Source: a bacterium
GTDB lineage: Bacteria; Patescibacteriota; Patescibacteriia; Veblenbacterales; UBA10138
Length of the DNA: 55,726 nt
Reading direction: 5' to 3'
Assembly (NCBI GenBank): GCA_020057885.1
Contig: JAGVEX010000016.1
Coordinates: 1-55,726 of the forward strand
This document shows positions 41,922 through 53,821 of this stretch, piece after piece. Every line of letters starts with the position of its first letter. The stretch's first letter is position 1. Position numbers and translations under genes: made by a program. Below the pieces are notes generated by a model. The model saw only the letters and a list, made by a program, of their open reading frames with translations, made no database searches and was not told the origin of the DNA.

Positions 41922-41933
41922 GATGTTTAATTT

Positions 41934-42410
41934 GCCAGATAAACCAATAAGCCGAATTTTGTATTCCGATTTGCATCGGAACAGCGACTATCTATCTTGT
42001 TCCTAATTCGCATTAGGACTCTAGCTACCAACCCGTCCCGCCTAGCGGGACCTACTTGGTATTGCACCGGGTAGAGTTTGCCTAGCCCTCCAAATCACTT
42101 TGGAAGCTGGTGAGCTCTTACTTTACCCGCCGAAGCGAGCTATCCCGCGCGTAGGCGGGCTCACCGTTTCACCCATCACCCCGTAAAATTAATTTTGCAA
42201 TTAATCACGTGGCTGGTTTATTTTCTGTTGTACTTGTCCTGCGGCCTTGTTACCAAGGCCAACGGCTCCTGTTAGGAGCTACCCCTCCCTAAAAGCGGGA
42301 GCGCTATGGTGTTCGGACTTTCCTCCCCTCGACAAGCTCGGGGTAAACCCCAAAGTATATTAGGGTTTGTCTTGAGCTTGCCGAAAGGCAATCGCCTAGA
42401 TTTACCTAGC
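41934..42410 (-). ncRNA. rnpB: RNase P RNA (type A-like)
   Basis: Minus strand contains 'gaggaaagtccg', 'gacaagtacaacagaaaataaaccagcc', 'gggtgaaa', 'gtaagagctcacc', 'ggcaaactctacccggtgcaataccaagtagg', 'acaaaattcggcttat'; 5'/3' ends pair as P1. Exact ends approximate. Confidence 0.95.
42330..42384 (-). repeat. Long hairpin of dispersed-repeat character (cgacaagctcggggtaaaccc...gggtttgtcttgagcttgccga) within the 5' domain of rnpB
   Basis: About 20-bp imperfect inverted repeat; arms resemble the common 'tcgacaagctcagg' dispersed repeat. Confidence 0.6.
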
Positions 42411-49919: not shown

Positions 49920-49950
49920 TATTTTTGAAAGATTGAGTAATATTTATAAT

Positions 49951-50373
49951 ATGAAAATTACTATTGTTAGTAGTTCCGTGTTTGTAAAGCAAATGGTTGA
50001 TTATCGTGATAAACTTATTGCGCTTGGGCATATAGTTGATCTTCATCCTCATTATGTAGCTCAAGCGGCGGGGGAGAGATCAGATTTAGTTGAACGTACG
50101 ATGACAGAACATGCACTTCTTAAAAAAGAATATGATTATATTAGGTATCATTATAATGAAATAGTTGATAGTGATGCGATTTTGGTTTTAAATTTTGATA
50201 AAAATGGGATTAAGAATTATATAGGGGGTAATACTCTTATGGAAATAGGTTTTGCCCACGTACACTATAAAAAAATATTTTTGCTTAACCCAATACCAGA
50301 AATTAATTATGAAGAAGAAATTAAAGCGATGGAACCGGTTGTTATTAATGGTGATCTTTCTTTGATTGTTTAA
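49951..50373 (+). CDS. Nucleoside 2-deoxyribosyltransferase-like protein
   Basis: 'DYIRYHYNEIVDSDAILVLNFDKNGIKNYIGGNTLMEIGFAHVHYKKIFLLNPIP'; ATG 49951 preferred. Confidence 0.7.
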   Translation: MKITIVSSSVFVKQMVDYRDKLIALGHIVDLHPHYVAQAAGERSDLVERTMTEHALLKKEYDYIRYHYNEIVDSDAILVLNFDKNGIKNYIGGNTLMEIGFAHVHYKKIFLLNPIPEINYEEEIKAMEPVVINGDLSLIV

Positions 50374-50397
50374 TATTTGTAACCATTAAAATAATAT

Positions 50398-50429
50398 AAA
50401 AAGTACCACTTACAAAGGTGGTACTTTTT
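50398..50429. terminator. Bidirectional terminator aaaaagtaccac...gtggtacttttt
   Basis: 12-bp perfect inverted repeat. Confidence 0.8.
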
Positions 50430-50447
50430 AAATATCAAGAAATTGGT

Positions 50448-50819
50448 TTATAACGCGAGTATTTTATCAATTATAACCATAACCACAGCGCCAAAAAACA
50501 TTAAACTTATCGTGGCTGGTTGAAATTTTTTGTTTTTCAAAAACGTAGCCGCCGTAAGCATAATTATCCAAACACCAACCGTAGCTATAACCATTGGTAT
50601 TCCCACTCTGATGATTTCAGGAATCATTTCTTTAATGCCAGCAGTAAAAAATGGGGGATATAGTGTTACCTCGCCATGGTAGATGTGTTCTGGAATCAGC
50701 CAAGCCACTCCGCCCCAAAGCATTGCGAGCAACCAGCCAACATGATATTGCGCAGGAATTTTCTTTTTAGTCGCACTAACTATAATTGCCGCGGTTAAAG
50801 GAACTACAAAACAACCCAT
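50448..50819 (-). CDS. Hypothetical membrane protein
   Basis: 123 aa, several hydrophobic segments. Confidence 0.55.
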   Translation of the reverse strand: MGCFVVPLTAAIIVSATKKKIPAQYHVGWLLAMLWGGVAWLIPEHIYHGEVTLYPPFFTAGIKEMIPEIIRVGIPMVIATVGVWIIMLTAATFLKNKKFQPATISLMFFGAVVMVIIDKILAL

Positions 50820-50938
50820 AAATTAAAATTGGTTAATATTAATTATATTATAACTATAACTAAATATGATAAGAAAGCAAAGATTATCAGCAGTAATTCT
50901 AATTTAAATTTTATCATTGTCTGTGTTATCATAATACT

Positions 50939-51853
50939 ATGATAGAAGATATAAACGAGATAAAAATTGATAACCAGATTTTTTCTTACCTTGATGACCA
51001 GCGTAATGGCCTTAAGCTTTATGTGAATAAAAATCGTAGCCAATATCTTCGCTTGGGTAATGTCGAGATTATTGATAAAGAAATTGCCTTACATCAGCAA
51101 TTAATCAGTGAGGGATTCCCTATAGCTAAGATTATTAAAAAAGGTAAATGGCAGGATTTATCTTATTGGATTGAAGAGTCTTTGGGCGAGAAACACCTGG
51201 CTGATTTATTTGCTGATGAATATAAGGCAAATGGCTGTATCACTGAAAAAACATTTCAACTTTTTCTTACTATTGTTGAAAAATTTCAAACGACTCAATT
51301 TAAAACTTTAAAAATTCCAATTAATTGGGATAAGGTTTATAAAGGGGTTGGGTTTGGTGATATTTTAAAAGAGTTGCCACAATATAAAACTAAACTTGAA
51401 ACTAGCTGGACAAATATGTGTAAAGAGTTGGAGAGTTTTCCAGCCGTATATTGTCATGGTGATTTTACTTCCCATAATATATTGCCACTTGGCGTTATCG
51501 ACCACGAAGATCATTTTGAAGGCCCTTTTGGTTATGATCTTATTACAGCTATAACTCCAGCCTATTGGTTTTCAGCAGATTCATCATATGGAAACTATGC
51601 CCGTCGTTCTCAATTTAGCCCAACTCAAAAAGAAGAGTTTTTTAACCGTTTTGGGATTTTTCAGTATGGGGGCAAACAATTTAACTTAAAAGATTATTTT
51701 AGCCCTTTATTTTTCTTAAAGGCAACCTGGTGGTCTGTTCGCAATTTTAAGAATCCTAAAATGCAGGAGTGGCGATACCAGAAATATATTTATTTATTAG
51801 AAAAGTATTTAGAGAAAGGTGATTTGTATCAGATTTGGTTAGAGAGCGAATAA
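50939..51853 (+). CDS. Aminoglycoside phosphotransferase (APH)-family protein
   Basis: 'AVYCHGDFTSHNILPLGVIDHEDHFEGPFGYDLI' = APH catalytic HGD-x-x-x-N and DHE motifs. Confidence 0.8.
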   Translation: MIEDINEIKIDNQIFSYLDDQRNGLKLYVNKNRSQYLRLGNVEIIDKEIALHQQLISEGFPIAKIIKKGKWQDLSYWIEESLGEKHLADLFADEYKANGCITEKTFQLFLTIVEKFQTTQFKTLKIPINWDKVYKGVGFGDILKELPQYKTKLETSWTNMCKELESFPAVYCHGDFTSHNILPLGVIDHEDHFEGPFGYDLITAITPAYWFSADSSYGNYARRSQFSPTQKEEFFNRFGIFQYGGKQFNLKDYFSPLFFLKATWWSVRNFKNPKMQEWRYQKYIYLLEKYLEKGDLYQIWLESE

Positions 51854-51942
51854 GACAATCCTATGTCTGTGGAACAATAATATCCATTTAATTATTTTTC
51901 CCTAAACTTAGCCAAAATTAGTTTTTTATTGTTCCACAAGCC

Positions 51943-51971
51943 TTGACAAAACCACATATTCGCGCTATTAT
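51943..51971 (+). promoter_or_regulatory. Strong sigma70 promoter TTGACA-N17-TATTAT
   Basis: Exact -35, near-consensus -10, 17-bp spacer, no ORF starting nearby. Confidence 0.8.
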
Positions 51972-51977
51972 GACTAT

Positions 51978-52150
51978 GTTAAAAATCGTGTCTTTTTAAG
52001 GCTCCCTTTAGGTGGAGGAGATAGAGAATGACGTGAAGAGATGTAAGACTCGTACTCAATTGGTACGACTCGTGCACTCTCCCTGCTTGGATACCATCAT
52101 TTTGGTCCCTTCAAGCCTTCTCGCCTCCAGCCAAAGGGAGCTTTTAGTTT
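51978..52150 (+). ncRNA. Candidate structured ncRNA or murJ leader RNA, family unassigned
   Basis: Closing stem GCTCCCTTT (52001-52009)/AAAGGGAGC (52133-52141) plus TGGAGG (52013-52018)/CCTCCA (52124-52129); internal hairpins cgtac-tcaattg-gtacg and gcttgga..ttcaagc; U-rich tail; strong upstream promoter. Confidence 0.6.
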
Positions 52151-52234
52151 TCCCGCGATAATACTAATTGGCGCGCAATAAGTAATAACAAACTTCCATT
52201 TTAGTCTAGATACAGCTATAATTATTGATACGAT

Positions 52235-53821
52235 ATGTTGAAAAATAAAATGGCGAATTTAAGTCTGACGGGCGGTGTTTTAATCATCGCCGTTTTTTCT
52301 GTACTTTCGCGTTTGTTGGGAGTTTTAAGAGATAGGTTGCTAGCTTCACACTTTGGCGCCGGTTCGGTGCTCGATGCTTATTACGCCGCTTTTAAGATTC
52401 CTGATTTTATTTTTAATATTTTTGTATTGGGTGCGCTAGCTTCGGCTTTTATTCCGGTGTTTATTAGTTTGCGAGATAAAGAGGGCGAAGCAAGTGCACA
52501 AAAGCTCGCGCAAATTGTTTTTAATTTATTGGTGGCATTTTTAACCGCTTGCGCCTTTTTAGGAATTATTTTAGCGCCTTGGTTAATGCCGCTTATAGCG
52601 CCAGGATTTGATCCAGAACGTCAGGCGCTTGCTATTTCATTAACGCGCATAATGCTTCTTTCAATTATTTTCTTTGGTGCTTCCAATGTTTTGGGTAGTG
52701 TGTTACAGGCGAAAAAAAGATTTTTAAGCTATTCTATTGCACCAGTGCTGTATAATTTAGGAATTATTTTTGGACTTTATACTTTTGTTTCCCGGTTTGG
52801 TCCTATTGGTTTGGCTTGGGGCGTGGTGTTAGGGAGTGTACTGCATCTTTTAATTCAAATTCCCGCCGCGCGACAAGCTGGTTTTAGTTGGCGTCCTTTG
52901 TTTAATTGGAGCGAGCGCGGTGTAAAACAAGTGTTAAAACTTTTAGGTCCGCGTACCATTGGCTTGGCCGCGAGCTCACTAGAGCAAATTATCACAGCCA
53001 GCTTTGTTTCCACTTTGGGTGTGGGAAGTTTGGCCGCTTTTACATTGGCTTCCAATTTGCACAGTTTTCCCATAAATGTTTTTGGCGTATCACTCGCCGT
53101 GGCGACTTTTCCTTTGTTTAGCGAGGCTTTTAGTAATAACAAAAATGATGATTTTATTAGTCATTTTAAACATAGTGTAAGGCGAATTTTATTTTTTGTA
53201 ATACCAATGTCCGTGCTTTTTTTAGTATTACGCGCGCAAATTGTGCGTGTGGTGCTGGGGAGTGGCGCTTTTGATTGGAGCGATACCATTCGTACCTCGC
53301 AGGTATTAGGATTTTTGGCCCTCGCTATGGTGGCAGATAGCTTAGTGCCGCTGGTGGCGCGCGCTTTTTATGCTTTGTCCGATACACGCACACCGGCGCT
53401 GGTAGCAGTGAGTAGCGTAGTTCTTAATTTATTTTTATTGATGATTTTTGCCCGTTATGGTTTAGGCGGTATTGGTTTGGCTTATGTAGCTTCGCGCGTT
53501 TTAAGCCTAAGCGCTTTGGTTGGTTTGCTGGGCAAAAAAATAGGCGATTTGGGCGCGGCCTATATTATGCAAGGCGCTTGGCGAATGTTATTTGCTTCCG
53601 TACTTTCAGGAGCGGCCGCTTATGCCACTTTATGGTTCATGGCGCCACAAGTTAATATGCATACTTTTATCGGCATTTTTATGCAAGGAACAACAGCTGG
53701 TAGCGTGGGAGTGTTGAGTTATTTGGCCTTGGCTTTTGTTTGGCGCTTGCCCGAAGTTAATTTTGTTAAACGATGGTTAGTTTCGGCTTGGCAACTTTCA
53801 TTGCATTTAGGGAGGCGTTAA
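52235..53821 (+). CDS. murJ: Lipid II flippase MurJ
   Basis: 'VLSRLLGVLRDRLLASHFGAGSVLDAYYAAFKIPDFIFNIFVLGALASAFIPVF', MATE-like repeats. Confidence 0.95.
   Translation: MLKNKMANLSLTGGVLIIAVFSVLSRLLGVLRDRLLASHFGAGSVLDAYYAAFKIPDFIFNIFVLGALASAFIPVFISLRDKEGEASAQKLAQIVFNLLVAFLTACAFLGIILAPWLMPLIAPGFDPERQALAISLTRIMLLSIIFFGASNVLGSVLQAKKRFLSYSIAPVLYNLGIIFGLYTFVSRFGPIGLAWGVVLGSVLHLLIQIPAARQAGFSWRPLFNWSERGVKQVLKLLGPRTIGLAASSLEQIITASFVSTLGVGSLAAFTLASNLHSFPINVFGVSLAVATFPLFSEAFSNNKNDDFISHFKHSVRRILFFVIPMSVLFLVLRAQIVRVVLGSGAFDWSDTIRTSQVLGFLALAMVADSLVPLVARAFYALSDTRTPALVAVSSVVLNLFLLMIFARYGLGGIGLAYVASRVLSLSALVGLLGKKIGDLGAAYIMQGAWRMLFASVLSGAAAYATLWFMAPQVNMHTFIGIFMQGTTAGSVGVLSYLALAFVWRLPEVNFVKRWLVSAWQLSLHLGRR

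Follow-up and report, generated by a model that had tools for sequence, protein, structure and literature searches.

A structured RNA upstream of murJ restricted to one family of Patescibacteria

Background

Does the interval just upstream of murJ in a patescibacterial genome encode an RNA of its own, or the leader of the murJ mRNA? The question arises from a 55,726-nucleotide stretch of DNA (the window; contig 5 of a 952-kb genome), in which an earlier note had marked a strong promoter followed by a compact, branched RNA and had proposed either an orphan small RNA or an attenuator or riboswitch leader. Patescibacteria have tiny genomes and few described regulatory RNAs, and no earlier description of 6S or other RNAs in Patescibacteria, or of an mviN RNA motif, was found in the open-licence literature. 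In the window, a DUF4012 gene and an APH-like kinase gene lie upstream of the RNA, while murJ (lipid II flippase; 52235–53821, plus strand; Pfam PF03023, E 8e-94) and then lepA lie downstream.

Results and discussion

Promoter and fold

The candidate gene opens with a sigma-70-type promoter on the plus strand, TTGACA-N17-TATTAT (51943–51971; −35 box at 51943–51948, −10 box at 51966–51971), exactly as the earlier note had read it, with 11 of 12 consensus positions. TTGAC(A/T) with a spacing of 16–18 nt to a −10 was observed at the equivalent place in all eight genomes of the family, and the closing stem, P1, begins 6–27 nt past the −10 in each (26 bases after the promoter in the window). With the promoter so placed, transcription would start shortly upstream of the closing stem, an arrangement typical of free-standing RNAs; from the sequence we infer a start at about 51978. 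A perfect 13-nt inverted repeat (TGTGGAACAATAA/TTATTGTTCCACA; 51868–51880 and 51926–51938, 45 nt apart) ends 4 nt before the −35 box; it may serve the APH-like gene as a terminator, or may mark a mobile-element or operator end.

The structured RNA itself covers 51998–52147 on the plus strand (covariance-model span 51997–52145). The minimum free energy of 51975–52160 is −67.3 kcal/mol, compared with a mean of −45.9 (sd 4.4) for shuffled sequences (z = −4.9), and none of 200 shuffles was as good. The closing helix of 9 bp plus 6 bp that had been proposed was recovered, with GCTCCCTTT (52001–52009) pairing with AAAGGGAGC (52133–52141) and TGGAGG (52013–52018) with CCTCCA (52124–52129), as were the two hairpins enclosed by it, P2 at about 52036–52081 and P3 at 52085–52116. 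P1 comprises 20 bp in total. Eleven of these pairs are changed on both sides among the family genomes, and 96.3% of cells are paired. Its 5' strand lies at 51998–52018, and its 3' strand, CCUCCAGCC..AAAGGGAGC plus UUUU (52124–52145), has a terminator-like end, as judged from the sequence and the family comparison. The inner part of the stem, GGUUGGAGG/CCUCCAGCC, is almost invariant in the eight-genome alignment. The U-rich end that the earlier note had described is there, although the tract is modest in the window (GCTTTTAGTTTT). Seven to eight U residues follow P1 in two of the relatives (G004 and G006), while the tracts of the other family genomes are interrupted, so termination may be weak.

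Comparison across genomes also resolved a short helix inside P1, which we call P1b, between GAGAA (52024–52028) and UUCUC (52118–52122, identified in the covariation analysis). It is paired in 8/8 genomes, and two of its five pairs show a compensatory change, both from the single genome G002. The junction is thereby predicted to be a compact three-way junction, and, in the aligned sequences, the pairing in every genome and the two compensatory pairs show the third arm to be genuine. P2 is variable in sequence and covaries heavily (13 of 19 pairs changed on both sides). P3, which reads GCUUGGAUACCA..UGGUCMCUUCAAGC and carries a 1x3 internal loop, is nearly invariant and is the most conserved part of the RNA, with its two helices (helices 4 and 5) paired in 100% and 95% of the alignment. 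The apical loops of both hairpins vary across the eight genomes. The 3' strand of P1b and P1 was found to be more invariant than its 5' partner, a hint of some further constraint.

Conservation, covariation and distribution

A DNA search of 57 relatives found the RNA in 8/8 genomes of the same family and in 0/49 of the others. In all eight it occupies the same slot, between the DUF4012 gene and murJ. The window also holds three ORFs, including the APH-family kinase, between DUF4012 and the RNA (49933–51853), while DUF4012 lies directly beside the RNA in several family members; the three-ORF segment looks like a lineage-specific insertion. Since the structured RNA is kept in every family genome, in under 1 Mb of DNA, it is probably important.

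To quantify covariation, the eight sequences, all from one family, were aligned with a fit to the covariance model of the RNA (R1), and the figures that follow rest on these eight genomes. In this alignment, 95.5% of cells were paired (84.9 in shuffled alignments), 27 of 56 predicted pairs were compensatory and 58 cells were changed on both sides (13.6 and 19.4, respectively, in shuffled alignments); none of 500 shuffles reached these values. Control structures slid along the alignment were only 32–50% paired, and an earlier alignment built without the model already contained 19 compensatory pairs. Comparative folding of relatives, one of the checks that the earlier note had suggested, thus showed the closing stem to be conserved with compensatory changes in 8/8 family genomes, and the RNA observed in that note is confirmed as real. 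A small ORF after GGAGG..GAGAAUG was considered and rejected, as its frame is not common to the genomes and its length ranges from 2 codons to open. The ATG-led frame downstream of GGAGG is either short or not the same from genome to genome, and the indels in the hairpins are not multiples of three, so the region is not coding. At the level of sequence, then, the locus has its own promoter, a conserved fold and no coding content, which are features of a free-standing small RNA.

Searching 381 genomes of the class with R1 returned the same eight family genomes (69–153 bits) and no match in the other 373. In a phylum sample of 380 genomes, about 347 of them from other classes, only the window's own genome was matched, and R1 found nothing at 22 murJ loci of other families. 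These searches point to a real, single-copy RNA that is, at this sensitivity, restricted to the family. When 84,980 species were scanned for the core motif and fold, only Patescibacteria of the Veblenbacteria/Kerfeldbacteria type were found. A scan of GTDB genome contigs for the P3 pattern gave 14 records, of which six were supported by the covariance model: Parcubacteria GW2011_GWD2_43_10, two further Patescibacteria, one Ca. Veblenbacteria and two Ca. Kerfeldbacteria. The remaining eight (Microvirga, Pseudomonas and others) were discarded as chance matches, having no model support (the best was a 15-bit fragment in L035).

Comparison with known RNA families

The Rfam comparison that the earlier note had suggested matched no family, even at permissive thresholds. 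For the RNA and its surroundings (51850–52260 of the window), no Rfam 15 family scored above its gathering score, nor at E ≤ 10, and the RNAs of the seven relatives had no match at E ≤ 3. In being defined by covariation and synteny, the RNA resembles the orphan structured RNAs found by comparative genomics (e.g. PMC2864571); it differs in being limited to one patescibacterial family and has no Rfam entry. By these sequence comparisons it is a new structured RNA restricted to one family of Patescibacteria.

Two housekeeping RNAs were rejected because they lie elsewhere in the genome: tmRNA (RF00023) on contig 6 (C6:55578–55959), and RNase P RNA within the window at 41932–42408 on the minus strand. 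The latter is of class A (177 bits); at 477 nt it exceeds its 367-position model and so contains additional sequence.

Bacterial SRP RNA (RF00169, RF01854) is likewise a small, stable-looking RNA gene, but the window RNA has no helix-8 core and no match to either SRP model, in agreement with the earlier reading that it is not SRP RNA, and no Ffh M domain could be detected in the lineage. RF00169 had no match in 19/19 genomes of the class, while RF01854 gave only two sub-threshold matches, located elsewhere. The Ffh M domain (PF02978) was absent from all 19 and present in 14/14 controls. The identity was rejected on the missing core and on Ffh and SRP RNA being undetectable in the lineage. SRP appears to have been lost across the class, which agrees with the reported lack of ffh and 4.5S RNA in Parcubacteria (PMC4508563); Patescibacteria appear to be without a signal recognition particle.

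The RNA could also be a strongly diverged analogue of 6S RNA (RF00013), an open-promoter mimic binding RNA polymerase, with P2 as the apical arm and P3 as the small hairpin 3' of the bubble. It has the right length (6S RNA is about 150–190 nt), paired ends, its own promoter and a single copy. RF00013 found no 6S RNA in the 19 class genomes; as it also failed to find one in 8 of 14 controls, four of which are archaea, this absence is not proof. Structural RNAs of Patescibacteria can escape Rfam cut-offs, as exemplified by RNase P RNA (PMC8172020). Yet neither the window RNA nor its relatives matched 6S RNA even at permissive thresholds, and P1b, which is paired in 8/8 genomes and has two compensatory pairs, spans what would be the open central bubble. 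That P3 should be the most conserved part is likewise unlike 6S RNA. With a covarying helix across the position of the bubble, 6S identity is unlikely, and the earlier description of a branched RNA rather than the 6S rod holds, with a three-way junction in its place.

A free-standing RNA or a murJ leader

As a 5' leader of murJ, the RNA would terminate conditionally at P1 and the U tract, or be processed there by RNase III, and its junction would sense a metabolite, protein or RNA and so set read-through. Synteny with murJ holds in 8/8 family genomes. In seven of them murJ follows the RNA directly and in the same orientation, with about 16–90 nt between RNA and ATG; this counts against a free-standing gene and also fits a leader. 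Several of these gaps leave no room for an obvious additional promoter, and the conserved P3 and junction resemble an aptamer core. Riboswitch and attenuator leaders similarly place a junction with a conserved core and a terminator-like end upstream of a gene, but P1 here is 20 bp long, and inspection of the alignment revealed neither a conserved alternative partner for it nor a conserved competing structure, leaving no visible switch. In G002, moreover, the RNA and murJ are separated by about 460 nt and a 215-aa ORF. There are also signs of a promoter belonging to murJ itself, namely TATAAT at 52217–52222 on the plus strand, a possible separate −10 just before the ATG with no good −35, and TTGAAT-N17-TATACT in the gap of G005; murJ may therefore be transcribed from a leaderless promoter of its own. 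Taken together, we consider a leader function doubtful.

No Shine-Dalgarno sequence was visible ahead of murJ in the window (start at 52235), in G004 or in G006, and the −10-like TATAAT of the window ends 12 nt before the ATG. This combination suggests a leaderless murJ mRNA.

The reading we prefer, with a probability of roughly 60%, is that the locus is a free-standing gene, with its own promoter, encoding a small structured RNA that most likely serves as a protein-binding scaffold in a ribonucleoprotein. An RNA of about 150–170 nt would be transcribed from the strong sigma-70 promoter, its ends would be locked together by P1, and P1 with the following U-rich tract would terminate the transcript at least partly. 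P1 and P1b would present the three-way junction, with a nearly invariant P3 arm and 3' strand and two variable apical loops. As conservation lies in the helices and junction and not in the loops, a scaffold for a putative protein partner is more probable than pairing of the loops with mRNAs. We infer transcription, termination, stability and scaffold function alike. The interpretation in the earlier note is supported; of its two proposals, the orphan small RNA is favoured over the murJ leader, with neither proved, and read-through into murJ or a leader role is possible. With promoter, fold and covariance model defined, the RNA can now be annotated, its expression can be followed in RNA-seq, and protein partners can be sought.

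A second orphan RNA elsewhere in the class

A second RNA was observed in other families of the class (L048, L050, L051, L053, L054, L077, L079, L080, L082, L084, L089–L094 and L096–L099). It is a rod with a closing stem and a 14-nt strand, AAA(U/A)CUCUCUCCUC, beside the apical hairpin, on either side. Often it has a TTGACA promoter and a T tract, and murJ is often but not always downstream. Its pattern gave 72 matches in 66 of 381 class genomes, compared with about 8 for a reversed control, and it is rare outside the class (L132, L138 and L139). The RNA had no Rfam match at gathering score. The displayed strand is anti-Shine-Dalgarno-like in sequence and is predicted to be unpaired in most cases.

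The window RNA might be its family's version of this second RNA, the CUCUCUCCUC-like strand CUUCUCACCUCC (3' strand of P1b/P1) being folded away by GAGG/GAGAA and acting on Shine-Dalgarno sequences when opened. The slot is common to several families, and DUF4012 is also upstream in L053, L089 and L090. The second RNA was not found exactly in any genome of the window's family; the window RNA also has a local likeness to L089 (UCUC-n-CCUCCAGCC), and its 3' strand varies less than the paired 5' strand. The likeness is short, however, the motif is unpaired in the second RNA and paired in the window RNA, and the covariance models of the two (R1 and R2) do not match each other. This non-match is a weak negative, because R2 failed to recover most RNAs of its own type and had a poorly predicted consensus structure. 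We hold such a relationship to be improbable; it concerns origin and mode, and is partly compatible with a free-standing scaffold.

A broader idea, which we rate as quite unlikely, is that the window RNA is a hitherto unrecognized ribonucleoprotein RNA of SRP-less Patescibacteria in a core role normally filled by 6S or SRP RNA (control of polymerase, or of the ribosome and membrane targeting), and that a class-wide slot upstream of murJ holds different RNAs of this sort. A target search for the second RNA, counting GAGGAGAGA upstream of start codons, returned nothing beyond the RNA genes. The anti-Shine-Dalgarno-like loop that the second RNA displays suggests an unmapped layer of small RNAs in the class.
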